DNA of 64,000 nt, from positions 3,472,001-3,536,000 of the forward strand of contig NZ_AP014924.1 of assembly GCF_001544015.1 (NCBI RefSeq), given 5' to 3'. Below the pieces are notes generated by a model. It saw only the letters and a program-made list of their open reading frames with translations. It had not been told where the DNA came from and made no database searches. The stretch comes from Limnochorda pilosa. GTDB taxonomy: Bacteria; Bacillota; Limnochordia; Limnochordales; Limnochordaceae. The position numbers and the translations under genes are program-made. Shown piece after piece: positions 5,890-19,203 of this stretch. Position 1 is the stretch's first letter, and each line of letters opens with the position of its first letter.

Positions 5890-6687
5890 TCAGGATTCGG
5901 TTTCGAGGGGCGGGCGGCGGCGACGCCAGGCGATCCTGGCCACCAGGTACCCCACCTCGTAGAGGACCAGCATGGGGAGTGCCAGGAGGACCTGCGAGAA
6001 CGGGTCGGTCCCGGGGGTGAGCAGCGCGGCGATGATGAAGACCAGGAGGATGGCGTACCGCCGGTTGTGGGAGAGGAAGCCGGGGCTCAGGAGCCCCACC
6101 CGCGCCACGAAGTAGACGAGCACCGGGAACTGGAAGAGCATCCCGAACGGGAGGGTGAGGTAGAGGACGAAGTTGACGAAGCTGCTCATGGAGATCATCG
6201 CTTCCAGCTCGGGGCTGGAGAAGCTCAGGAAGAACGCGAGCGCGCTGGGGAGGACCACCAGGAAGGCAAAGGCGCCGCCGGCAGCAAAGAGCAGGCTGGC
6301 CAGGGGCACCACCCAGTAGATCATGCGCGAGCCGCCGCGCGCCCGCTCGCGCACGAGCTGCCAGGCCTGCCAGAGCGCCACGGGGTAGGTTGCCACCACG
6401 CCCAGGCCCAGGGCGAGCTTGAACTGGGCCACCAGCGCCTCGGTGGGCGTCAGGAAGACCAGCGAGGTGAGGCGCGGCTGCACGGCCAGCAGGTCCTCGA
6501 AGAAGCGGCCACCCACGAAGAAGGCCGCCAGGGTCGTGGCGAGGAAGGTCGCGACCACCGTCAGCAGCCGCCGGCGTGCCCGGACCAGGAAGCCTTCCAG
6601 GCCCTCCCAGAGGCCCCTTACGTCGAGGCCGTCGTCCGGTGCCTCCGGCGCCCCGGCACCCGCGTCCGGCACGTCGGGCAACGCCAT
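5890..6687 (-). CDS. tatC: Sec-independent protein translocase TatC
   Basis: 265 aa integral membrane protein with six hydrophobic segments, as in TatC, the twin-arginine receptor. The family segments FLTPTEAL near 80, FQFPVLVYF near 200 and ALLTPGTDPFSQ near 235 are readable. Two starts compete. ATG 6705 overlaps the upstream stop (ATGA) but lacks a Shine-Dalgarno. ATG 6687 is preceded by AAGGAGGAGGAG at ideal spacing and was chosen. No TatA is adjacent. A likely substrate is the RR-containing beta-propeller at 56040-57239. Confidence 0.93.
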   Translation of the reverse strand: MALPDVPDAGAGAPEAPDDGLDVRGLWEGLEGFLVRARRRLLTVVATFLATTLAAFFVGGRFFEDLLAVQPRLTSLVFLTPTEALVAQFKLALGLGVVATYPVALWQAWQLVRERARGGSRMIYWVVPLASLLFAAGGAFAFLVVLPSALAFFLSFSSPELEAMISMSSFVNFVLYLTLPFGMLFQFPVLVYFVARVGLLSPGFLSHNRRYAILLVFIIAALLTPGTDPFSQVLLALPMLVLYEVGYLVARIAWRRRRPPLETES

Positions 6688-6701
6688 GCGCTCCTCCTCC
6701 T

Positions 6702-7886
6702 TCATGACCCGCCCGCGCCCGCCGTCAACTCGCCCACCGCGCCCAGCACCGTCTCCACTTCGGATTCGGTGTTGAAGAAGTGGACCGAAAGACGGACGGC
6801 CTCGGGACGGGGTACCCAGCGGCCGATCACCTGGTACCGCTCCGCCAGGAGTCGCGTCGCTTCGGGAGCCGAAAGCCCCCGCAGTCGGAAGGCGACCAGC
6901 CCCGCGGAACGCTCGGCTTCCATGGGGGTGATCACCTCCACGTCCCTTAAGGCGGCGAGCCCTTCCTTGAGTCGTCCGGTCAGGGCGGCGACCCGCTCCC
7001 AGATCGTACGCCGCCCCATGCCCTCCAGGATCTGGGTGGCCGTTCGCAAGCCTTCGAAGAGCGCAAGGCTGATGGTGGCCAGCTCGAACCGCCGGGCCGA
7101 GGCCTTCAGCCGGTAGGTCAGTGGACCGGCGGGGCTCTCCTCGTGCTCCACCGACGCCCAGGCGATCGAGGCCGGGGCCGCGACCGCCCACGCCCCCGGC
7201 GCGAAGTGGAGGAACCCGGTTCCCTCAGGCCCCATCAGCCACTTCTGTCCGGGGCCTGCGTAGAAGTCCGCGCCCAGCCCGTCCAAGGGCTCCGGGAGGC
7301 AACCGGCGGCCTGGGCTCCGTCCACCAGCAGCCGGCAACCGTGCGCTCGGGCCAATTCCGCCGCTGCTTCCACGGGCAGGCGCGCCCCCGTGGCGTAGGA
7401 GACGTGACTCATGCAGATGAGCCGCGTGCGGGTCGAAAGGCCCTCCCGTAGCTCGTCCGGGGTGAGCCGCACCCCGTCGCGCGGGCGGAGCACCCGCACC
7501 CGGACACCCAAGCGGTCCCGCAGGTAGCCGAAGGGGAGGAGGCCCGAGGCGTGCTCCAACTCGGATGTGACGACCTCGTCGCCGGGACGCCACACCATCC
7601 CGCCCACCACCGCGGCCATGCCGTGGCTGGTGTTCTGTGTGAAGGCGAGCTGGTCGGGCGTGGAGCCGAGGAAGCGCGCCAGATCGTTCCGCACCTGCTC
7701 CAGCCGGCGCCCGCTCTCCCGCAGGGCCTCCGCACTCCCCGGGCCCGCCTCGCTCAGGTAGCGCTCCGACTCCGCCTCGGCGCGCAGGGCCGGTTCCGGC
7801 ACCGGCCCGGACGTGCCCGTGTTCATGTAGATGCTCCGGCGGGTGACAGGCAGCAGATTTCGAACCTCTTCCACCCAGCCCTCCAT
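6702..7886 (-). CDS. Class V aminotransferase / cysteine desulfurase-like PLP enzyme
   Basis: 394 aa. Fold-type I PLP enzyme with FTQNTSHGMAAV near 83-94, LVDGAQAAG near 190 (the Asp that contacts PLP) and GQKWLMGPEGTGFL near 217-230, holding the Schiff-base Lys. It resembles the SufS/Csd and isopenicillin-epimerase branch, but no conserved catalytic Cys loop is obvious, so the substrate is open. ATG 7886 follows AGGGTGGGG. A longer frame to 8009 lacks family resemblance. It shares an operon with tatC (ATGA junction) and is divergent from the amidase gene. Confidence 0.85.
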   Translation of the reverse strand: MEGWVEEVRNLLPVTRRSIYMNTGTSGPVPEPALRAEAESERYLSEAGPGSAEALRESGRRLEQVRNDLARFLGSTPDQLAFTQNTSHGMAAVVGGMVWRPGDEVVTSELEHASGLLPFGYLRDRLGVRVRVLRPRDGVRLTPDELREGLSTRTRLICMSHVSYATGARLPVEAAAELARAHGCRLLVDGAQAAGCLPEPLDGLGADFYAGPGQKWLMGPEGTGFLHFAPGAWAVAAPASIAWASVEHEESPAGPLTYRLKASARRFELATISLALFEGLRTATQILEGMGRRTIWERVAALTGRLKEGLAALRDVEVITPMEAERSAGLVAFRLRGLSAPEATRLLAERYQVIGRWVPRPEAVRLSVHFFNTESEVETVLGAVGELTAGAGGS

Positions 7887-7962: not shown

Positions 7963-8790
7963 ATGCCACTCCGTGCCGGGAGGCGAAGGCCTGTGTCCCG
8001 CCGCCCCATCTGGGTGATCTCGGGTTGGACCCTCCTCGCCCTCTTGGGGCTCCTGCTGGCCGCAGGCGTGGCCTTGATCTACGCCGGCACCCTCCCCGGC
8101 CGGCCCGCCCCCCGCCCGGGCGATCGGGTGCTGGTGGATCCGGGACACGGCGGGATCGACTCAGGCTGCCACTGGGATCAGCTCTTCGAGAAGGACCTCA
8201 CCCTGCGCATGGCGGTCCTCGTCAAGAACCGGTTGGAGGAGGCGGGGGTGCCCGCCTTCCTCACCCGTTCCTCGGACCGCGACCTGGACCCTCTGGAACC
8301 CTCGATCCGCGGCCGCCACCAGCGGGACCTTCAGGCCCGGGCGGAGCTCGCCCGCCAGGTCCGGCCCGTGGCCATGGTCAGCCTCCACGTGAACGCCGGC
8401 ACCGGCGAGCGCCTCTCGGGAGCGATGGTCTTCTACCAGGCCCAGAGCCCCGAGAGCCGCCGCCTGGCCGCCCTGATCCTGGAAGAGCTGCGGAACGTGG
8501 TCCCCGGCAACCAAAATGGGATTCTGTCCGCGGACTTCTACCTCCTGCGGTCGGTGCCCCACCCCACCGTCCTGGTGGAGGCGGGTTTCCTCACCACCGC
8601 CCGGGATCGGGCGACGCTCACCTCGCCCGACGGCCAGGAGCGCATCGCCGAGGCGGTCGCAACCGGCATCCTGGCCTACCTGCGCGGCCAGGCGGCCCCG
8701 ATCCCAAGCGACCGGCCTTCCCTGGCCCCCGCCCTCGGCGGATTCGGCCGCGACCGCCTCGAACCGGACACGGACGGCTGCGGCTCCTAG
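7963..8790 (+). CDS. N-acetylmuramoyl-L-alanine amidase, CwlD-like
   Basis: 275 aa. An uncleaved signal/anchor helix (about 17-42) is followed by an Amidase_3 zinc domain: LVDPGHGGIDSG with the first zinc His, FEKDLTL with the Glu ligand, VSLHVNA with the second His, and PTVLVEAGFLT with the catalytic Glu. Size and single-domain layout match CwlD, which makes muramic-delta-lactam in the spore cortex, so it is weak evidence for sporulation. ATG 7963 has GAGG upstream; GTG 7994 after GGGAGGCGAAGG is an alternative start. The stop overlaps the convergent treT stop within the tetranucleotide CTAG. Confidence 0.86.
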   Translation: MPLRAGRRRPVSRRPIWVISGWTLLALLGLLLAAGVALIYAGTLPGRPAPRPGDRVLVDPGHGGIDSGCHWDQLFEKDLTLRMAVLVKNRLEEAGVPAFLTRSSDRDLDPLEPSIRGRHQRDLQARAELARQVRPVAMVSLHVNAGTGERLSGAMVFYQAQSPESRRLAALILEELRNVVPGNQNGILSADFYLLRSVPHPTVLVEAGFLTTARDRATLTSPDGQERIAEAVATGILAYLRGQAAPIPSDRPSLAPALGGFGRDRLEPDTDGCGS

Positions 8791-10064
8791 TTGGCTACGA
8801 AGAGCCCGGTGCGAGCCTCCACGGCGGCTGGCGCCGCCATGAGGCGGGCCAGGAGCTGGAGGTGGTCCTCCAGGTCGCGCGTCACCAGGAAGTGACGCCG
8901 CACGTGCTCGCGCCCCTCCCCGCCCATGCGCGCCCGTTCCGCCGGGTTCTGCAGGAGCCACTGGGTCCGGTCGGCGCACTGCTCCACCGACTCCACCAGG
9001 AAGCCGTTCTGTCCGTCCAGCACCTGGATGGGGATGCCGCCGGCGTTGCCCCCCACCACGGGCCGGCCCTTCCACAGGCCTTCGGTGACGGTGAGCCCGA
9101 ACCCCTCCCGCAGCGACTTCTGGATGATCACGTCCGCGGCCCGCTGGAAGGCGTTCACCTCCCGGTGGTTGATGCCGTGGAGGTTGGCCAGGATGAAGAG
9201 GTCCGGGTCCTCCCCGGCGTGGCGGAGCGTTCGATCGTAGAAGGTCCAGCCTTCGGGGTCGTCGGTGGCCATGGAGCCCACCAGGAGCAGCTGGACCTCA
9301 GGCATCTCCCGCTTCACCAGCCGGTAGGCGTCGACCACCCCCAGGGGATCCTTCCATGGGTCGAAGCGGGAAACCTGGGCGACCAACGGCCGCCGGGGAT
9401 CCATCCCAAACCGCCGGACGATCGCCTCCACCTCCGCGGGATCCAGGTCCCGGTTCTTCTCGCTCAGCGGATCGATGGAGGGCGGGATGATGGCTACCAG
9501 GGGAAGGCTCAGGTCCGGCTGGACGTAGGGGGCGAGGCTGAAGATGGCTCCGTCGTAGGCGGTGAGGTAGGGCCGGATCCAGGACCAGACCCCGGGGTTG
9601 GGGCGCGAGAGGTCGATGTGGCAGCGCCAGATCCACCGGCCTCTCCGATGCTCCACCAGGCTGGCCAGGGCCGCCGGCTGCGGGTCGTGGATCACCACGA
9701 CGTCGTAGGCGTCCCAGTCGAACCGGCTGTTGGCCACGTTCACCTCGCGGTAGGTCTCCTGCATGGGCCCGTCGATGACCACGTCGGCCCCTTGAAGCCC
9801 GTTGTGGGCCGTCTTGGTCACCCGGAAGAAGGCATCGGTGCCCTCCATCACCCACCAGTCGGTGGGAATGCCGACGCCATTCAGCAGGCCCACCAGCGGG
9901 AAGAGAAGCTCCACGACCCCTCCCCCGTACGCGGTGGCGTTCACGTGAGCCACCCGCAGACCCACCAGCGGCCGGGCCAGCGCCCGGATGCGTTCCACCA
10001 CGGCCTCACCGGCCAGCGGAGCATACGCCTCCACCCTCAGGGTGGGAACCGTCACCTGCTTCAC
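8787..10064 (-). CDS. treT: Trehalose glycosyltransferring synthase (TreT-type glycosyltransferase)
   Basis: 425 aa GT-B glycosyltransferase. TreT-type segments are readable: HVNATAYGGGVVELL near 40-54, GTDAFFRVTK near 75, RCHIDLS near 155, VSRFDPWKDP near 240, and KSLREGFGLTVTEG near 320 with GGNAGGIPIQV. TreT joins an NDP-glucose and glucose to make trehalose and is mostly known from thermophiles. GTG 10064 was chosen because GAGGAGGATCC sits just upstream and the preceding open frame (to 10229) is Arg/Pro/Gly-rich with no family match. A general group 1 glycosyltransferase is the alternative. Confidence 0.82.
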   Translation of the reverse strand: MKQVTVPTLRVEAYAPLAGEAVVERIRALARPLVGLRVAHVNATAYGGGVVELLFPLVGLLNGVGIPTDWWVMEGTDAFFRVTKTAHNGLQGADVVIDGPMQETYREVNVANSRFDWDAYDVVVIHDPQPAALASLVEHRRGRWIWRCHIDLSRPNPGVWSWIRPYLTAYDGAIFSLAPYVQPDLSLPLVAIIPPSIDPLSEKNRDLDPAEVEAIVRRFGMDPRRPLVAQVSRFDPWKDPLGVVDAYRLVKREMPEVQLLLVGSMATDDPEGWTFYDRTLRHAGEDPDLFILANLHGINHREVNAFQRAADVIIQKSLREGFGLTVTEGLWKGRPVVGGNAGGIPIQVLDGQNGFLVESVEQCADRTQWLLQNPAERARMGGEGREHVRRHFLVTRDLEDHLQLLARLMAAPAAVEARTGLFVAN

Positions 10065-10512
10065 CTGGATCCTCCTCGCGGGGCTCACCTTCGGGGCCGC
10101 CCGGTCGCCTGCCGTCGCGCGATCGCGCCGTCCCACCGCCCTCGGCGAGCCATTCGCCGCACGCCGTCCGCTTCCTCTCGGGCCCGGCGAGAGGATCGCG
10201 TCCCGAACGACCAGCCGTTCGCCATTCATGGAAACGCCGTTGACACGCGGGCCTCCCAGAAGTAGGCTGGAGATAGGAGAGTGATCGGATGCACCGTTCG
10301 CGTGCCATCACCCTCAGGCGCTCTCCTCCCTCTGGCCTTCCACGCTCCCAGCGTGAAGCATCTTCGGATCACACGGTGGTCGTCAATGGTTCTTCTTATC
10401 ACGCGCTCCCTTTCCCAGGGGCTCCCCCGGGACACGTCCCTTCCCATGAGGGATCCCCAGCTTCGGCGGAGGTGATGCAGCGGGCCCACACCGTACTGGC
10501 CGGCCCACTCCC
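10065..10512 (+). other. Divergent intergenic region treT/cstA with structured leader
   Basis: The left part (10065-10230) holds the treT upstream region with no clear minus-strand promoter. The right part is the probable cstA leader, about 300 nt after the promoter at 10240-10268. Visible structure: a perfect hairpin CACGCT-CCC-AGCGTG (10341-10355) and a long-range pairing of GTGATCGGATGC (10281-10292) with GCATC...GATCAC (10358-10372). AGGAGAG (10276) could also pair with CTCTCCT (10321). An open frame 10289-10570 begins 7 nt after AGGAGAG and ends TTGA across a possible cstA start. I recognise no known riboswitch. Confidence 0.45.
10240..10268 (+). promoter_or_regulatory. Predicted promoter of the cstA operon
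   Basis: Perfect -35 TTGACA (10240-10245), 17-bp spacer, -10 TAGGCT (10263-10268). It points at cstA and predicts a leader of about 240-300 nt. Confidence 0.6.
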
Positions 10513-12327
10513 ATGCGGGCCTCAACGGAGCATCCCGCGCGTCCGCAGGGACGCGCTCGAAAGGGGTTGAGGGGATTGACCACGTGGTTGTTGCTGCTCG
10601 GCCTCGTCCTTTATGTCGTCGCGTACCTGACCTACGGGCGGGGGCTGTCTCGTTCGGTGGTCCACACCGACGACAGCCGCCAGACCCCGGCACACACCCT
10701 GTACGACGGCGTCGACTACGTACCGGGGAACCCGCTGGCCATCTACGGGCACCACTTCGCCTCCATCGCCGGGGCGGGACCCATCACGGGGCCGGCCATC
10801 GCGATGATCTGGGGCTGGCTGCCCAGCCTCATCTGGATCTGGCTGGGGAACATCGTCATCGGCGCCGTGCACGACTACCTGGCGGTCATGGCCTCGGTCC
10901 GCTCGGAGGGCAAGTCGATCCAGTGGATCGCCGGCAAGACCATGAAGCCCAGGACCTCCCGCATCATGATGGTCTTCATCTACGCAACCCTGGTCCTGGT
11001 GGTGGCCGCCTTCGTCACCGTGGCCGGCCTCAACTTCGTCGCCACCCCCGGCGTCGCCTCGGCCAGCATGCTCTTCCTGGTCGCGGCCCTGGTCTTCGGG
11101 GTCCTCTCCTACCGGATGAAGGTGAACTTCACCCTGGCCACCGTCATCGGGCTCGTGCTGCTGGCCGGCGCCATCTGGCTCGGCTTCGTCTGGGGCTGGC
11201 ACGCCTCCTTCCAGACGTGGGTCGTGGTCCTGGCCATCTACGCGGTCCTTGCGAGCAGCCTGCCCGTCTGGCTCCTGCTGCAGCCTCGTGACTACCTGAA
11301 CAGCTACATCCTCTTCGTTGGCCTGGGGGCGGGCATCATCGCGCTCCTGGCGGCCTTCAAGGGCATGGCGCTGCCGGCCTACAGCGTGTGGAGCGCAAGC
11401 GCCGTGGGCGGCGTTTCCTCGCCCTTCTGGCCGGCCATTCCGCTGGTGATCGCCTGCGGGTCGCTCTCGGGCTTCCACTCGCTGGTGGGCTCGGGCACCA
11501 CGTCGAAGCAGCTGGACAAGGAGAGCCATGGGCTCCCCATCGGTTACGGCGGCATGCTCACCGAGGGCGTCCTGGCCACGGTGGTGGTGCTCGCCATGGG
11601 CGCCTACGGCTTCCAGGTGCTGGGCACCGTCAGCGGGCAGCTGGCCGATGCCGGCATTTCCCTGGCTCGGCTGGAGACGGACGCGGCCTACTACGGATCC
11701 ACCTTCCTGAAGGCAGCCAACCCCGTGGGCGGCGCGCTCGGGCTCTTCACCCGCAGCTACGGCCTTGCCCTCTCCGACGTCTTCGGAGTGACCGCCCAGT
11801 TCGGCACCCTCTTCGCGGGGCTCTGGGTGACGGCCTTCGTGCTCACCACCCTGGACACGGCCACCCGTCTGGCCCGGTTCACCTGGCAGGAGTTCTTCGG
11901 CTACCTGAAGGAGTCGAGCCCCGGCGTGCACCGGGTGATCACCGACCGCTGGGTGGCCGGCGCCATCGTCGTCATCCTGGCCGGGTGGCTCTCGTGGGGC
12001 GGCGCCTACACCGTGGTGTGGCCGGCCTTCGCGGGCGCGAACCAGATGGTGGCCGCGGTCGCCATGCTCACCGCCGCCCTCTGGGCCATCAAGATCCAGA
12101 AGGCCTCGTCCGGCTACCAGTGGGCCACGGTGATCCCGGGGGCCTTCCTCTGGGTCACCGTCTTCGCCGGCCTCATCTGGTACGTCTACGCGGTGCCGGC
12201 AACGCTGGTCATCAAGGCCATCTTCGTCCTCATGGCCGTGTTGTCGCTGCTGCTCTTGGTCGACTTCTTCGACGGCTACCGGCGCCGGGTCCAGGCGCCC
12301 GTGGGCGTTGCGGGGAGCGGCCGGTGA
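10513..12327 (+). CDS. cstA: CstA-family carbon-starvation / pyruvate or peptide transporter
   Basis: Polytopic membrane protein, about 15 hydrophobic segments, up to 604 aa. CstA signatures are AYLTYGR in the first helix, DGVDYVPGNPLAIYGHHFASIAGAGPI near 66-92, GWLPSLIWIWLGNIVIGAVHD near 103-123, and HSLVGSGTTSKQL near 320. The family imports pyruvate or peptides during carbon limitation. The start is uncertain: ATG 10513 lacks a ribosome site, while TTG 10576 (583 aa) follows GAAAGGGGTTGAGGGG and fits the family N-terminus better. It overlaps the next gene by GTGA and heads a four-gene operon with an ArsA-type ATPase. Confidence 0.9.
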   Translation: MRASTEHPARPQGRARKGLRGLTTWLLLLGLVLYVVAYLTYGRGLSRSVVHTDDSRQTPAHTLYDGVDYVPGNPLAIYGHHFASIAGAGPITGPAIAMIWGWLPSLIWIWLGNIVIGAVHDYLAVMASVRSEGKSIQWIAGKTMKPRTSRIMMVFIYATLVLVVAAFVTVAGLNFVATPGVASASMLFLVAALVFGVLSYRMKVNFTLATVIGLVLLAGAIWLGFVWGWHASFQTWVVVLAIYAVLASSLPVWLLLQPRDYLNSYILFVGLGAGIIALLAAFKGMALPAYSVWSASAVGGVSSPFWPAIPLVIACGSLSGFHSLVGSGTTSKQLDKESHGLPIGYGGMLTEGVLATVVVLAMGAYGFQVLGTVSGQLADAGISLARLETDAAYYGSTFLKAANPVGGALGLFTRSYGLALSDVFGVTAQFGTLFAGLWVTAFVLTTLDTATRLARFTWQEFFGYLKESSPGVHRVITDRWVAGAIVVILAGWLSWGGAYTVVWPAFAGANQMVAAVAMLTAALWAIKIQKASSGYQWATVIPGAFLWVTVFAGLIWYVYAVPATLVIKAIFVLMAVLSLLLLVDFFDGYRRRVQAPVGVAGSGR

Positions 12328-12587
12328 CGAAGGATCGCCCCGCCCGCTCCTTCGTCTCCGAGTGGTTGCGCGAGCGGGCGGTGGGATACATCCAGGTGGA
12401 GCGACGGGAGCTGGAGAACGTCTTCGCCCTCATGGTGCTGGGGGCGTTCGTGGGGCTCCCGTCGCCCCCCACTCCGCTGAGCCTGCGGCTCCTTCCCCAC
12501 CTGGGGAGGGAGTTGGCCGTGCTGCGCCGGCGGGCAGAGGAGATGGACGACCTCTATGGGGAAGCCGCTGCGCTCTTCGACCTCTGA
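12324..12587 (+). CDS. Small protein of unknown function between cstA and arsA-like gene
   Basis: 87 aa, not recognised. GTG 12324 overlaps the cstA stop (GTGA) and follows GGGGAGCGG. The sequence is amphipathic and charged at both ends, with one hydrophobic stretch (NVFALMVLGAFVGLP, about 32-46) followed by Pro-rich SPPTPLSLRLLP. That could be a re-entrant or peripheral membrane helix. The C-terminal 25 residues are acidic and helical (ELAVLRRRAEEMDDLYGEAA). Translational coupling to CstA on one side and overlap with the ATPase gene on the other (32 bp) argue it is a real partner subunit. Confidence 0.75.
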   Translation: MTKDRPARSFVSEWLRERAVGYIQVERRELENVFALMVLGAFVGLPSPPTPLSLRLLPHLGRELAVLRRRAEEMDDLYGEAAALFDL

Positions 12588-13656
12588 GCGAACCCGCGCC
12601 GGCGCGGCCCGCGATCCGCTGCCGCCCCTCTCCCGGGCCCTGGACCGCCTCCTCGATCGGGGCTCCACCCGGGATGCAGGCGACGTGACGCTGCTGATCA
12701 GCATGGGCAAGGGGGGCACGGGCAAGACCACCGTGGCCGCCAGCCTGGCCGTTCGGCTGGCTTCGGACGGCTTCCGGGTGCTGGTGGCCTCCATCGACCC
12801 TGCGCACAACCTGGGCGACGTACTGGAGCGGCCCCTGGGCTCGGAACCCTCGGCCGTGCCGGGCGCGCCGGGTCTCTGGGCCCTGGAGGTGGATACCGAT
12901 CGGGCGCTGGAGCGCTACCTCGAGCGCGCGAGTCGGGAGGTGACCGACGCCTACCGGTACCTGGAGACGCTCAACCTGGACCGGTTCCTCGAGGGTCTCC
13001 GCTACGCCCCCGGCGTGGAAGAGCAGGCTACCCTGGAGGCGGTGGGCGAGTTGCTGCAGCAGGCCGAGGCCGACCGCTTCGACGTCCTGGTGCTCGACAC
13101 CCCACCCACGGGGCAGACGCTGCGGGTGCTGGCCCTACCCGGTATCTCCCTGCGCTGGGCCCAGGAGCTGCACCGGGTACGCAGGGCGATCCTCGACCGG
13201 CGCCAGGCCGTCAGCCGCATCCTGGGCCATGAGACCGCCGTGGTGGGTGGGGAGCAGGTGACCCTGCCCTCCGAGGAGGAAGGGGACCCCATCAGCCGCA
13301 TCCTGGCGGCGTACGTGGAGCAGACCCGACGGCTCCGGCAGCGCTTTCAGGACGTGGATCGGACCGGCGTCCTCCTGGTCCGCAACCCTGACCGGCTTTC
13401 GGGGTTGGAAAGCCAGCGGGCGCTGGGGACCCTGGGCCGCTTCGGCGTCCCCCTCGCCCAGGTGGTCGTGAACCGCACGGATCCCCGGGAACCCGCCGGC
13501 ACCAGCGCGGACGCGCTGCCGCTGCCGGACCTCTACCCCCACGGCCGGTTGCCCCTCCTGCAGCCCGAGCCCTCGGGAGCCGAGGCCCTGCGCGCGCTCT
13601 CCACCCTCATGCTCGACCCAGCCGGATCGCAGAGCAGAGGAGGCACCGAGCGATGA
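12556..13656 (+). CDS. ArsA/Get3-family ATPase
   Basis: 366 aa with one ATPase domain. The deviant Walker A KGGTGKTT (52-59) carries the signature Lys of the SIMIBI/ArsA class. Further on are SIDPAHNLGDV near 85, the switch-like DTPPTGQTLR near 176-185, and a C-terminal VVVNRTDP segment. ArsA partners ArsB in arsenite efflux and Get3 inserts tail-anchored proteins. No arsB, arsR or arsC is nearby, and the operon instead places it with CstA, so a role in CstA assembly, delivery or energisation is inferred. ATG 12556 overlaps the preceding gene; its ribosome site (GAGGAG, 12 nt away) is modest. Confidence 0.85.
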   Translation: MGKPLRSSTSERTRAGAARDPLPPLSRALDRLLDRGSTRDAGDVTLLISMGKGGTGKTTVAASLAVRLASDGFRVLVASIDPAHNLGDVLERPLGSEPSAVPGAPGLWALEVDTDRALERYLERASREVTDAYRYLETLNLDRFLEGLRYAPGVEEQATLEAVGELLQQAEADRFDVLVLDTPPTGQTLRVLALPGISLRWAQELHRVRRAILDRRQAVSRILGHETAVVGGEQVTLPSEEEGDPISRILAAYVEQTRRLRQRFQDVDRTGVLLVRNPDRLSGLESQRALGTLGRFGVPLAQVVVNRTDPREPAGTSADALPLPDLYPHGRLPLLQPEPSGAEALRALSTLMLDPAGSQSRGGTER

Positions 13657-14321
13657 GCACCCCTTTCCTCACCTTCGTCATCCTCCTGGCCGGCGTCACC
13701 TTCCTCTTCTACCGGTGGGGGCGCCGGCGGAACACCGAGATCGCCGAACGCTCCGCCCGGGAGCTGGAGGAGGCGCTGCGGCCCGAGGACCAGAGCTACA
13801 CGTGGATCGGCGGCCTCATCGGATACCGGGTCGACTACCGGGTCCGCCGGGGGGAGCTGAACCGGGTGGAGGCCACCCTCACCATGCTGCCGCGGCACAG
13901 CCTGCTCTACCTGCCCTTCTCCTGGATCATCCGGCGCAGCGACGCGCTCTACCTCCTCTTTCGGCCCAACGTCCCCCTGCGGGGCCGGGGGCACCTGATC
14001 CTCCTGGACCACGGCTCGGCACCCCGTGTGGACCGTCCCGAGGACCTCCGCGTGGAAGAGCTGCGGTTGGGCCGCCATCGGTTCCGTCTCCTGTACGGCT
14101 CGGACGCCGCGGCCGCCTTCCTTCGCCGGGTGGCGGAGCATGCCTTCGGGCCGGCCGGAGCCGGCCCGGCTGCGACGAGCCGCCCGGAGGCCCCGGTCGT
14201 GCGCCACCTCTCCATCAACGCCGAGGAGGGGGCGCTCTACTGCCGGATGATTCCCGTGCCCGGCCGCATTCGCCCTGCGGTGGAACGCCTGGCGGCGGCC
14301 TTGGCCGGGAGCGAGGAGTGA
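13653..14321 (+). CDS. Membrane-anchored protein of unknown function
   Basis: 222 aa, not recognised. One N-terminal transmembrane helix (about 4-20) is followed by RWGRRR, suggesting a cytoplasmic soluble domain. That domain is beta-rich, with IGYRVDYRVRRGELNRVEATLTMLPRHS (first 20 residues from about 54) and a partly hydrophobic LYLPFSWIIRR. ATG 13653 overlaps the ATPase stop (ATGA) and has GGAGG about 9 nt upstream. Last gene of the cstA operon. Confidence 0.75.
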   Translation: MSTPFLTFVILLAGVTFLFYRWGRRRNTEIAERSARELEEALRPEDQSYTWIGGLIGYRVDYRVRRGELNRVEATLTMLPRHSLLYLPFSWIIRRSDALYLLFRPNVPLRGRGHLILLDHGSAPRVDRPEDLRVEELRLGRHRFRLLYGSDAAAAFLRRVAEHAFGPAGAGPAATSRPEAPVVRHLSINAEEGALYCRMIPVPGRIRPAVERLAAALAGSEE

Positions 14322-14351: not shown

Positions 14352-14382
14352 CTTCGGCAGACGCCCCCCGAAGTGGTAGAAT
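14352..14382 (+). promoter_or_regulatory. Weak predicted promoter of the ptb-buk-vor operon
   Basis: -35 TTCGGC (14353-14358), 18-bp spacer, -10 TAGAAT (14377-14382), 48 bp before the chosen ptb start. The -35 box is poor, so this is tentative. Confidence 0.4.
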
Positions 14383-14429
14383 GGAAGGGGTTCCGCGGGG
14401 TGGCAATCTCGACGAAGGCGGTGTCCGGC

Positions 14430-15335
14430 ATGGCCCTGCCCCCGTTACGACGGCTCGATGACCTGCTCGCGTCGGCCGTCGCCCGCCACCTCAAGGTGGC
14501 CGTGGTGATGGCCGGCGAGCCGAATACCCTCGAGGCCCTCCGCCTCGCCCACGAACACGGGCTGGCCGAGGGCCTTCTTATCGGTAATGGCTCTCAGATC
14601 CGTTCTATGGCCGAGGCGGTCGGTCTGCCCCCCCCGGCCTTCAGCGTGATCGACGAAGAGGATCCCCGGCGGGCCACCCTCCTCGCGGGCCAGGCGGTGG
14701 CCCGGGGCGAAGCCCACCTGATCATGAAGGGCCGCATCTCTACGGGTGCGCTCATGGCCGGCCTCCTTCAGCCCGAGGCCGCCTTCCGCACCGGGCGCCG
14801 CTTGAGCCACGTGGCGGTGATCGAGTCGCCCGGGCAAGACCGGTGGCTGGCGGTGACCGACGGCGCTGTGCACATCGCCCCCGACCTCTCTCAGAAGGTG
14901 GAGATCCTGCAGAACGCCGTGGACCTGGTTCAGAGGCTGGGGGCGGAGGAGCCCCGGGTCGCGGTGCTGGCGGCCCTGGAGCAGGTGAACCCCGAGATGC
15001 CGGCCACCCTGGATGCGGCGGCACTGGCCAAGATGGGCGAGCGCGGCCGGTTCGGGCCCGCCCTGGTAGACGGGCCGCTGGCCGCGGACGTGGCCCTTTC
15101 GCGCGAGGCGGCCGAGGTGAAGCATGTCCGCGGGCCCGTTGCAGGCGAGGCGCAGGTGCTCGTGGCCCCCTGCATCGAGACCGCCAACGTGCTGATCAAG
15201 GGGCTCCAGTACTTCGCCGGCGCCCGCTGGGGCGGGCTGGTGGTGGGCGGGCGGGTGCCCGTGGTGGTCGCCTCCCGGGCTGACCGGCGGGATACCCGCC
15301 TCTACTCCCTGGCCCTGGGCTGCCGGGTCGTCTAG
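14430..15335 (+). CDS. ptb: Phosphate butyryltransferase / phosphotransacylase
   Basis: 301 aa, matching Ptb (acyl-CoA + Pi to acyl-phosphate + CoA). Family segments are VVMAGEPNTLEALRLAHEHG near 25-44, LIMKGRISTGALM near 92-104, HVAVIESP near 127, and the C-terminal CIETANVLIKGLQYF with GGLVVGGRVPVVVASRAD. The frame is open back to GTG 14373, but that would lie inside the predicted -10. ATG 14430 gives the normal N-terminus (GAAGGCGG upstream, weak). It is followed after 15 bp by butyrate kinase, the enzyme it normally feeds. Confidence 0.9.
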   Translation: MALPPLRRLDDLLASAVARHLKVAVVMAGEPNTLEALRLAHEHGLAEGLLIGNGSQIRSMAEAVGLPPPAFSVIDEEDPRRATLLAGQAVARGEAHLIMKGRISTGALMAGLLQPEAAFRTGRRLSHVAVIESPGQDRWLAVTDGAVHIAPDLSQKVEILQNAVDLVQRLGAEEPRVAVLAALEQVNPEMPATLDAAALAKMGERGRFGPALVDGPLAADVALSREAAEVKHVRGPVAGEAQVLVAPCIETANVLIKGLQYFAGARWGGLVVGGRVPVVVASRADRRDTRLYSLALGCRVV

Positions 15336-15350
15336 AGAGGAGCCGAAGCC

Positions 15351-16472
15351 GTGGCCTTCCGAATTCTCGTCATCAACCCGGGCTCGTGCACGACGCGCCT
15401 CGCGCTCTTCGAGGACCTGGTCTGCCGGCAGCAGGTGACCCTGGAGCACCCTACCTTCCTGCCGCCCGACGAAGACCTGGAGCGCCGGATCGGATCCATC
15501 GAGGCCTGGTTGAGCGAGGTCGACCAGCCCGTGGACGCGATCGCCGCCCGCGGCGGCATGCTCCACCCGCTTCCCGGCGGGACCTATCGGGTCAACGACG
15601 CGATGTGCGAGGATCTGCGCACCTCCCGCTACGGGTGGCACCCCTCCAATCTGGCGGCGCTCATCGCCCGCCGGCTGGGAGAGCAACGGGAGGTGCCCCA
15701 GTTCGTGGTGGACCCGGTGGTGGTCGACGAGTTGGAGGACGTGGCCCGCATCAGCGGGCTCCCCAGCCTGCCCCGGCGCTCCGTCTTCCACGCGCTGAAC
15801 CAGAAGGCCGTGGCGCGCCGGGTGGCCGCGAGCCTGGGCATGCGCTATGAAGAGGCCCACATGGTGGTGGCCCACATGGGCGGGGGCATCACCGTGGGCG
15901 TGCACGCCGGGGGACGGGTCATCGACGTGAACAACGGCCTGGATGGCGAAGGACCTATGAGCCCCAACCGGGCCGGCACCCTTCCGGCGGGTCAGCTCGT
16001 CGATCTTTGCTTCTCGGGTCGCTACACCCGGGACCAGGTTTGCCGGATGCTGGTAGGTCAGGGGGGCCTGGTCGCCCACCTGGGCACGTCAGACGCCCGG
16101 GAGATCGAGGAGCGGATCCGCCGGGGCGACGAGGAGGCCCGCCCGGTCTACGAGGCCATGGCCTACCAGGTGGCCAAGGCCATCGCCGCCGGCTTCGCCG
16201 TCCTGAAGGGGCGGATCGACGCCTGCATCCTCACCGGTGGTCTGGCCCACTCGGAATTTCTGGTGGGCCGGATCCGCGACCGCATCGACTGGGCCTGCCG
16301 GGTGGTGGTCTCTCCGGGCGAGGACGAGATGCTCGCCCTGGCCAGCGGCGTCCTGAGGGTGCTGCGCGGCCAGGAGGAGGCGCGCACCTACCTGGCCACG
16401 GAACCCAGCGAAGGGAGGGACGAGATCCGTGGAACCGGTGATCATCGACCAGGAACGGTGCAAGGGGTGTGA
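15351..16472 (+). CDS. buk: Butyrate / branched-chain fatty acid kinase
   Basis: 373 aa, ASKHA acetate-kinase superfamily. It begins with LVINPGSCTTRLALFED (phosphate-1 motif), then AARGGMLHPLPGGTY, HMGGGITVGVHAGGRVIDVNNGLDGEGPMSPNRAG (Buk hallmark near 183-216) and the adenosine motif LTGGLAHS near 295. It makes ATP from acyl-phosphate. GTG 15351 follows GAGAGGAGCC. It is about 15 residues longer than usual because its tail overlaps the ferredoxin gene by 44 bp. With the downstream oxidoreductase the likely substrates are isobutyryl-, isovaleryl- or 2-methylbutyryl-phosphate. Confidence 0.92.
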   Translation: MAFRILVINPGSCTTRLALFEDLVCRQQVTLEHPTFLPPDEDLERRIGSIEAWLSEVDQPVDAIAARGGMLHPLPGGTYRVNDAMCEDLRTSRYGWHPSNLAALIARRLGEQREVPQFVVDPVVVDELEDVARISGLPSLPRRSVFHALNQKAVARRVAASLGMRYEEAHMVVAHMGGGITVGVHAGGRVIDVNNGLDGEGPMSPNRAGTLPAGQLVDLCFSGRYTRDQVCRMLVGQGGLVAHLGTSDAREIEERIRRGDEEARPVYEAMAYQVAKAIAAGFAVLKGRIDACILTGGLAHSEFLVGRIRDRIDWACRVVVSPGEDEMLALASGVLRVLRGQEEARTYLATEPSEGRDEIRGTGDHRPGTVQGV

Positions 16473-16641
16473 GCTCTGCCTGGCCGCGTGCGGCCCTGGC
16501 GTGCTGGAGCTGTCCGAGGCTTTCAACAGCCGGGGCTACCGCTACAGCCAATTGACCGACCCCGACCGCTGCACCAGCTGCGCCCAGTGCGCGCGGGTGT
16601 GCCCCGAGGCGGCCATCGCCGTCTACAAGCTGGCGAGCTGA
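16429..16641 (+). CDS. 2[4Fe-4S] ferredoxin-type delta subunit of 2-oxoacid:ferredoxin oxidoreductase
   Basis: 70 aa with two CxxCxxCxxxC sets: CKGCELCLAAC (about 11-21) and CTSCAQCARVC (about 49-59). The second set is followed by the usual Pro and the first by Gly-Pro. This matches VorD/KorD electron-transfer subunits that precede the catalytic subunits. GTG 16429 has AAGGGAGGG upstream, inside the buk 3' end. It passes electrons from the VorA/VorC core to external ferredoxin. Confidence 0.88.
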   Translation: MEPVIIDQERCKGCELCLAACGPGVLELSEAFNSRGYRYSQLTDPDRCTSCAQCARVCPEAAIAVYKLAS

Positions 16642-16729
16642 CGCGGCGCGGCCGGCTTTCCGGAGCGGGCCGGACGCACGTTCGGGAAGAGAGGCCGCCG
16701 CCGGGGGAAGGGCAGAAGGAGGCGCACGC

Positions 16730-17833
16730 ATGGCTGAACGCAAGCTCATGAAAGGGAGCCACGCCCTGGCCGAGGCAGCGCTGCGAGCGGGGTGCCGGTA
16801 CTACTTCGGATACCCCATCACCCCCCAGACGGAGCTCTCGGAGTACATGGCGCGGGAGCTGCCCGCCCGGGGAGGCGTGTTCATTCAGGCCGAGAGCGAG
16901 GTGGCGGCCATCAACATGGTCTACGGAGCCGCCGGTGCGGGCGGCCGGGTCATGACCTCGTCCTCAGGTCCCGGGGTGAGCCTGAAGCAGGAGGGCATCT
17001 CGTACCTCTGCGGGTCCGAGCTCCCGTGCGTGATCATCAACATCATGCGGGGCGGTCCGGGTCTGGGCAACATCATGCCCTCCCAGTCCGATTACTTCCA
17101 GGCGGTGAAGGGCGGAGGCCACGGTGACTACCGTCTGATCGTGCTGGCGCCCTCCACGGTTCAGGAGGCCGCCGATCTCATGCGCCTGGCCTTCGAGCTG
17201 TCGGAGCGCTACCGCAACCCGGCGATGGTCCTGGGCGACGGGATGCTGGGGCAGATGATGGAGCCTGTGGAGCTCCCGCCGGAAGTGGCTCCGGCACCGC
17301 CCGAGCGCCCGTGGGCCACCCGCGGAACCGGTGGCGGCGAGCCTCGGGTGATCACGTCCATCTACCTTGAACCCGAGGTGCTGGAGGAGCACAACCGCCG
17401 CCTCCAGGCCAAGTACGCCGAGATCGAGGCCCGAGAGGCCCGCTGGGAGCTCCTGGAGCCCGAGTCGGACTTCTTCCTGGTGGCCTACGGAACCGTGGCC
17501 CGCATCGCCCGGAGCGCCATGAAGCTTGCCCGCGGCCGGGGTCTCTCGGTGGGACTGCTCCGCCCCATCACCCTGTGGCCGTTCCCGCGCCGGGCCTTCG
17601 AGCAGGTGCTCCCGCATGCCCGGGCCTTCCTCACCGTGGAGATGAGCAGCGGCCAGATGGTGGAGGACGTGCGGCTGGCGGTCGACGGCCGGGCACCGGT
17701 TGCGTTCCACGGACGGCTCGGGGGCGTCGTTCCCGAGCCGGAGGAGATCGTGGCCCGGCTGGAAGAGCTCGCCGGGAAGGTCGAAGACGGAGGTGTCCAC
17801 CGTGTCGCCACGTTCGAGCACGCAGGCCGCTGA
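16730..17833 (+). CDS. vorB: 2-oxoacid:ferredoxin oxidoreductase alpha subunit, VOR type
   Basis: 367 aa. It has the [17 protein letters not shown] active-site/pyrimidine-domain start, [16 protein letters not shown] near 84, and a C-terminal domain II with [19 protein letters not shown] typical of 3-methyl-2-oxobutanoate (VOR) or 2-oxoglutarate enzymes. ATG 16730 follows AGAAGGAGG. Adjacent ptb/buk favour branched-chain 2-oxoacids, but specificity cannot be read from sequence alone. Confidence 0.9.
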
Positions 17834-18629
17834 CGGTGTGCGGGTGATCTACCACCGCCCCCGGGCGCTCTCCGACGCCCACACCCACTACTGCCCGGGC
17901 TGTACCCACGGCATCGCCCACCGGCTGGTGGCGGAGGTGATGGACGAGCTGGGCATCGTCGACCGGACCATCGGGGTGGCCTCGGTGGGCTGCTCGGTCT
18001 TCGCCTACAACTACCTCCGATGCGACTTCCAGCAGGCCGCCCACGGCCGGGCGCCGGCGGTGGCCACGGGGATCAAGCGGGTCCTGCCGGACCGGGTGGT
18101 CTTCACCTACCAGGGCGACGGCGACCTCGCCTCCATCGGCACCGCGGAGATCATCCACGCGGCCGCCCGCGGCGAGCGGATCACGGTGATCTTCATCAAC
18201 AACGGCATCTATGGGATGACCGGCGGGCAGATGGCCCCCACCTCGCTGGCGGGCCAGGTGACCACCACCTCGCCGAGGGGCCGCGATCCCCAACTGCAGG
18301 GCAACCCGATCCGCATCACCGAGATGCTGGCCCAGCAGCCTGGGGTGGCGTACCTGGCCCGGGGCTCGCTCCACTCGAGCCGCGAGATCGGCCGGGCCCG
18401 GCGGATGGTCCAGCGGGCCTTCGAGGCCCAGCTGAACGACGCGGGCTTTGCGATGGTGGAGCTCCTCTCCAGCTGCCCCGTGGGGTGGAACATGACACCC
18501 CGGCAGGCGCTGGAGCACATCGAGCAGGCGGTCGTACCCGTCTACCCCGTGGGTGAGCTGGTACCGGCACCGCCCTCGCGAGGTGCCAGCGACGGGCGGC
18601 ACGGGAAGGGAGGCTCCGACCATGCCTGA
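17802..18629 (+). CDS. vorA: 2-oxoacid:ferredoxin oxidoreductase beta subunit (TPP-binding), VOR type
   Basis: 275 aa. [12 protein letters not shown] near 31-42 and CSVFAYNY near 63 hold iron-sulfur and active-site residues. The TPP motif is [17 protein letters not shown] near 107 through [11 protein letters not shown] near 133. GTG 17802 follows GGAGG at 8 nt and overlaps vorB by 32 bp. It carries out oxidative decarboxylation of the 2-oxoacid with the alpha subunit. Confidence 0.9.
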
Positions 18630-19203
18630 CATGGACCGTGCGGGGACGCGCCACTCGGAGATTCTCGTGGCCGGCTTCGGGGGCCAGGGCATCCTCACCG
18701 CGGGCCTGATTCTGGCCCAGGCCGGGCTGCAGGAGGGTCGCGAGGTGAGTTGGCTGCCTTCCTACGGCCCGGAGATGCGGGGTGGGACGGCCCACTGCCA
18801 CGTGGTGCTCTCGGATGAGCCGGTCGCGTCGCCGCTGGTGACCCACCCCGACATCCTGCTTCTCTTCAACAAGCCCTCCCTGGAGCGCTTCGAACCGGCC
18901 CTGCGGGCGGGCGGCTACCTCATCGCCAACAGCTCGCTGGTACCGCCCGCGACCCGCACCGATGTCCGGCGGGTGGAGCTTCCCGCCACCCGCATGGCCC
19001 TCGAGATGGGTGCCCCCGAGGCGGCGAACATGGTGATGCTGGGCGCGATGGTCGCCTCTGCCGGGGCGGTCTCTTTCGAGAGCCTGGAGGCGGCGCTCCC
19101 CGTGGTGATCAGCAAGCGTCACGCCGACAAGATCCCGCTGGATCTGGAGGCGATCCGGAAAGGTATGGAGGCCGCGGCGGCCCTGGTGCCCCAGGGTGCC
19201 TGA
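18622..19203 (+). CDS. vorC: 2-oxoacid:ferredoxin oxidoreductase gamma subunit, VOR type
   Basis: 193 aa. CoA-binding gamma domain with [20 protein letters not shown] near 15-34 and [15 protein letters not shown] near 47-61, both strong family signatures. ATG 18622 has GGGAGG upstream and overlaps vorA by 8 bp. Last gene of the ptb-buk-vorDBAC operon; a 10-bp hairpin follows at 19234. Confidence 0.92.

Follow-up and report, generated by a model that had tools for sequence, protein, structure and literature searches.

Why should a gene for an ArsA/Get3-type ATPase lie directly behind a gene for a CstA transporter, and what do the two small proteins encoded with them contribute? In the window that we analyzed (a stretch of 64,000 nucleotides from the genome of Limnochorda pilosa), the four genes cstA, cstX, arsA and cstY are all present and in frame on the forward strand (Table 1), with a third-position GC of 0.89–0.94 each. 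An initial annotation had described them as overlapping or abutting by 4–32 bp, and the measured overlaps are 4, 32 and 4 bp in gene order. CstA has about 14 predicted membrane helices and is the only CstA in the L. pilosa genome. Its start is more likely the TTG, which is preceded by AGGGG, than the upstream ATG, since close relatives begin near the former. A gene on the reverse strand (8787–10229) encodes a TreT-like trehalose synthase that scores 476 bits against NF041139, for which the cut-off is 775.

Table 1. Genes of the cstA operon in L. pilosa, with coordinates in the window.
Gene	Coordinates	Strand	Product
cstA	10576..12327 (ORF open from ATG 10513)	+	CstA-family transporter, PF02554 E 7e-129
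cstX	12324..12587, GTG start	+	87 aa, helical, cory-CC-star/CstX family; CstY-associated subtype
arsA	12556..13656	+	Single-domain ArsA/Get3 ATPase, 366 aa; TIGR00345 182.5 bits
cstY	13653..14321	+	222 aa; N-terminal membrane helix and soluble alpha/beta domain, predicted CCDC47/TtfA-like fold

The ATPase passes the TIGR00345 cut-off of 135 bits and matches PF02374 with an E-value of 6e-48. Its active site is intact, with GKGGTGKT at residue 51, SIDP at residue 79 and DTPPTG at residue 181, and it shares with the Get3/TRC40 and ArsA ATPases the deviant Walker A, the switch I SxD and the switch II DTxPTG. Unlike those enzymes, it lacks both the CxxC zinc motif of Get3/TRC40 and the ArsA cysteines (it contains no cysteine at all), has a single domain and is encoded with CstA. 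It is not an arsenical pump ATPase by the TIGR04291 model: it scores 101.7 bits where the model requires 650, has one domain instead of two and has no Cys113/172/422. An arsenite site of the ArsA type is ruled out because there is no cysteine to form it. Membership in the ArsA family is what speaks for an arsenite or metal detoxification ATPase that came to lie next to CstA by chance. Given the missing cysteines, the single domain, a linkage to CstA that is conserved across two domains of life and the lack of any ars gene among the scanned neighbors of the operon (as the initial annotation had also noted), we regard that explanation as extremely improbable.

The association between this ATPase and CstA is not new. 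From both bacteria and archaea, Castillo and Saier described in 2010 operons in which cstA is accompanied by cstX (about 90 aa) and a single-domain arsA; five archaea also had a cstY of about 210 aa with one membrane segment (PMC2963123). They noted that the ArsA cysteines were absent, proposed that ArsA energizes CstA and suggested CstX as a linker (PMC2963123). The idea of an ATPase that acts on CstA through a linker had therefore been published before the initial annotation arrived at it, and a linking role for the 87-aa protein is plausible. The annotation did not recognize the two small proteins, which we identify as CstX (87 aa) and CstY (222 aa). The latter has one hydrophobic segment, at its N-terminus; in size, topology and operon it agrees with the published description of CstY, on which the match is based. 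The L. pilosa locus resembles the published operons in its CstA, the CstX of roughly 90 aa, the single-domain ArsA (about 330 aa in those operons) without the three cysteines, the one-helix CstY of roughly 210 aa and the absence of ars genes. It differs in that CstY was then confined to five archaea and was given no fold, whereas here it occurs in Bacillota and Synergistota. The locus is thus a real, conserved and previously described transporter system, in this case with a bacterial CstY. In the literature that we searched, there was no follow-up to the 2010 proposal and no functional test of CstA-linked ArsA/Get3 ATPases.

A gene-neighborhood search bore out the suggestion that the ATPase belongs with CstA. 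The order CstA-CstX-ArsA-CstY on one strand recurred in 24 loci besides the one studied (L032, L049, L135, L136, nine loci from Thermoproteota and eleven from Synergistota), so that the full order spans two bacterial phyla, Bacillota and Synergistota, and one archaeal phylum, Thermoproteota. The arrangement is not unique to L. pilosa, and finding the same order in 24 other loci from three phyla makes it more than chance. Two Synergistota loci, in which cstY sits at the end of a contig, lack the other operon genes. When the CstY family was searched with profiles A2 and A4 and matches were counted at an E-value of 1e-9 or better, it was found in 5 of 398 genomes of Bacillota (the phylum of the window), in 13 of 151 from Synergistota and in 18 of 250 from Thermoproteota; one Asgard genome gave no match. 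CstY is therefore not restricted to archaea. It was first reported from Thermococcus and Pyrococcus (PMC2963123), neither of which is among the genomes surveyed here.

The core of the system is spread more widely. We scanned genome contigs with an ATPase profile, taking one genome per species, and considered the best 80 ArsA loci. CstX lay beside ArsA in 56 of these 80, and CstX, ArsA and CstA occurred together in 45 (45 of the 56 with CstX), in Gammaproteobacteria, Actinobacteria, Chloroflexi, Gemmatimonadota, haloarchaea and Pyrobaculum. The remaining 11 of those 56 had CstX-ArsA and no CstA within the locus neighborhood considered. This runs contrary, as far as those neighborhoods extend, to the 2010 statement that CstX is never found without CstA (PMC2963123). 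Because CstX-ArsA occurs without a nearby CstA, CstX tracks the ATPase as much as it tracks the transporter.

Examples of such loci came from three groups. In four gammaproteobacterial loci (L077 6669–7918, L093 6633–7927, L104 6636–7918 and L097 3514–4769), the pair lies downstream of ratA/ratB and of a gene for a sodium:neurotransmitter symporter, and in L093 it is itself followed by genes for a small HSHD/CEVC protein and a TonB receptor. Two Firmicutes loci (L033 6220–7174 and L035 1981–3605) combine ArsA with a CstX that ends in -DWCC; in L033 the pair adjoins a gene for DUF2284, which is predicted to bind metal, and in L035 a regulator gene of the arsR family. The CC tail of these two CstX proteins may have a role that involves metal. 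The third group comprises the Chloroflexi loci L071, L092 and L125. Conversely, in L137 cstX is absent and arsA has been reduced to a remnant of 69 codons (6568–6841), with cstA and cstY intact on either side, so CstA and CstY can persist without the ATPase.

Both kinds of locus would be accounted for if ArsA and CstX were a general ATPase-adaptor pair that serves various membrane partners, of which CstA is one, with CstY as an independent subunit of CstA that occurs in archaea and in a few phyla of bacteria. We consider this unlikely, since CstA is by far the commonest neighbor of CstX-bearing ArsA loci in our sample.

E. coli CstA requires YbdD, a protein of 65 aa, to take up pyruvate (PMC5847655). 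In both systems, the gene for a CstA-family transporter goes with one for a small partner protein; unlike the L. pilosa locus, E. coli has no adjacent gene for an ATPase or for CstY. The AlphaFold2 model of CstX (pLDDT 88) has helices at residues 5–43, 50–59 and 61–84, and a fold search with it returned no PDB match. Part of the CstX family is covered by NCBIfam NF041419, named cory-CC-star, probably after the -CC ending of many CstX proteins. The L. pilosa protein ends in -FDL and, in contrast to the cory-CC-star subtype, has no C-terminal CC; it matched NF041419 with an E-value of 6e-5 but, at 23 bits, did not reach the cut-off of 80. The CstX of Haloferax volcanii, a species that also has CstA, likewise scores under that cut-off. 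The nearest relatives of the L. pilosa protein are plain CstX proteins, among them that of L032 (76% identity over 80 residues by blastp). Identity in the family alignment was 73% to the L032 protein and 48% to an archaeal CstX (L176).

YbdD ends in -ARCC and many CstX proteins end in -RCC. We considered homology between CstX and YbdD and dropped it: in the comparison with YbdD (PF04328), CstX proteins gave no Pfam match, and hhalign found no signal (probability below 1%). We propose a functional replacement only. No YbdD-family protein is encoded in the L. pilosa genome, and YbdD was present in 1 of 40 genomes with a CstX operon that were drawn from our other searches. Of 294 Pseudomonadales genomes, 32 have CstX, 22 have YbdD and 2 have both; all genomes with either protein also have CstA, and both genomes with the two together carry at least two CstA genes. 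CstX and YbdD largely exclude each other in this order. Fisher's exact test on the 57 Pseudomonadales genomes with a strong CstA hit gave p = 8e-9, which is an indication only, because relatives were counted as independent and relatedness was ignored. As the two families have no sequence relation, it is distribution, and nothing else, that points to CstX as a replacement for YbdD.

The new element of this analysis is the CCDC47-like fold that is predicted for CstY. We modeled the protein with AlphaFold2 from 33 family members (pLDDT 92.3). A Foldseek search with this model was headed by chains that we verified by name as CCDC47 (E-values of 2.6e-6 and 4.2e-6). VIA-align superposed the model on CCDC47 chain 7tm3_4 with a Z score of 15.3 (208 of 222 residues, 3.3 Å), on 9i78_4 with a Z score of 14.4 (207 residues) and on 6w6l_7 with a Z score of 9.3, and the superposed ranges take in the membrane helix. 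TtfA (PDB 6t84) followed with a Z score of 8.6 over 152 residues of the soluble domain only, and all chains after it scored 6.6 or less. The match of the modeled fold to CCDC47 is well supported. In eukaryotes, CCDC47 forms part of the PAT complex, a chaperone of multipass proteins. Like it, CstY would consist of one membrane helix followed by a cytosolic alpha/beta fold. Unlike CCDC47, CstY has neither the luminal domain nor the C-terminal coiled coil: its chain runs from the membrane helix to the end of the globular domain.

Homology between the two proteins is unproven by sequence, and all sequence support was weak. PF07946 (CCDC47) matched 4 of the 33 CstY members. The L. pilosa protein reached 15.2 bits against a gathering score of 27.7, and its best relative, from L192, was also below the cut-off (20.3 bits, E-value of 3.5e-4, residues 6–187). 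A CstY profile search of the PDB gave no CCDC47 match up to an E-value of 10, comparison of CstY profiles with the PDB copy of human CCDC47 by hhalign did not rise above shuffled controls, and searching Pfam with consensus CstY sequences brought no real gain. As a benchmark, human and Chaetomium CCDC47 themselves matched with an E-value of only 1.6e-5. The human segment used in that benchmark differs from the PDB copy only within the membrane helix.

The fold bears directly on what the operon might do. ArsA, CstX and CstY could be a module devoted to the assembly and stability of CstA, helping to fold and insert this many-helix transporter and not driving it. The superposition of CstY on CCDC47, membrane helix included, and the place of the ATPase in the TRC40/Get3/ArsA family are both in keeping with this. 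However, the parts of CCDC47 outside the shared fold are missing from CstY, a single dedicated ATPase for a single client would be unusual, and the ATPase does not carry the hallmarks of Get3. Besides having no cysteine, it has no methionine at residues 190–270, a region that we take to correspond to the client-binding helices of Get3; judged by its sequence, this argues against a Get3-like, Met-rich client groove. TtfA, moreover, provides an example of a similar fold that serves a transporter directly. It has a membrane helix at its N-terminus and binds to MmpL3, whose transport activity depends on it (PMC6593404). CstY would share with it the membrane helix, a related soluble fold and a transporter as partner; the differences are that MmpL3 belongs to another transporter family and that no ATPase partner is known for TtfA. 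We regard an assembly module as possible but rather less likely than not; it is the main alternative to the reading that we favor.

A further step would be to see CstY as a true prokaryotic homolog of CCDC47, perhaps the ancestral form, that acts with CstX and the Get3-type ATPase, in bacteria as well as archaea, as an assembly factor devoted to a many-helix transporter. We hold this to be slightly more doubtful still. A paper from 2022 states that the PAT components are lacking in prokaryotes (PMC9630114), and a CCDC47-like protein in bacteria or archaea would qualify that statement. It would also offer a simple genetic system in which to ask if the fold serves to build transporters or to act together with them.

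The reading that we favor, at a probability of about 0.5, is that the locus encodes a bacterial CstA-CstX-ArsA-CstY transporter in which the ATPase acts through CstX to switch or energize CstA, and CstY is a subunit anchored in the membrane. In the role of small cytoplasmic partner, CstX would replace YbdD, and it would couple CstA to an ArsA homodimer, whose binding and hydrolysis of ATP would switch or energize the transporter. CstY may contact CstA as TtfA contacts MmpL3. ArsAB would be the model: a transporter able to work alone, with an ATPase that drives or controls it in addition. CstA probably transports pyruvate, some other 2-oxo acid or peptides, which would supply the 2-oxoacid:ferredoxin oxidoreductase, Ptb and Buk. 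Genes for Ptb, Buk, a small ferredoxin and a VorB-type 2-oxoacid:ferredoxin oxidoreductase subunit (14373–19203) start about 50 bp after cstY, and Buk- and Ptb-type genes precede cstA in L137. We infer that these neighbors are in keeping with CstA as an importer of pyruvate or another 2-oxo acid, or of peptides.

Our preference for driving or switching over assembly is a modest one. In its favor are the linkage of CstX and ArsA with CstA, the order shared by 24 loci, the mutual exclusion of CstX and YbdD, the persistence of CstA and CstY in L137 and the precedent of TtfA and MmpL3. Against it, E. coli CstA and BtsT work without an adjacent gene for an ArsA partner, the 11 of 80 loci without a nearby CstA suggest that the ATPase may serve something else, and a CCDC47-like fold of CstY would suit assembly at least equally well. 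The link between CstA and these ATPases has been known since 2010; the pattern of CstX in place of YbdD and the predicted fold of CstY now make their role testable.

Tandem ArsA genes adjoin CstX in three loci (L045 6306–8338, L047 7052–9021 and L192 7278–9287). One copy in these pairs reads STNPVHS in place of SxDP, with the switch I Asp changed to Asn, which suggests a heterodimer with one inactive site.
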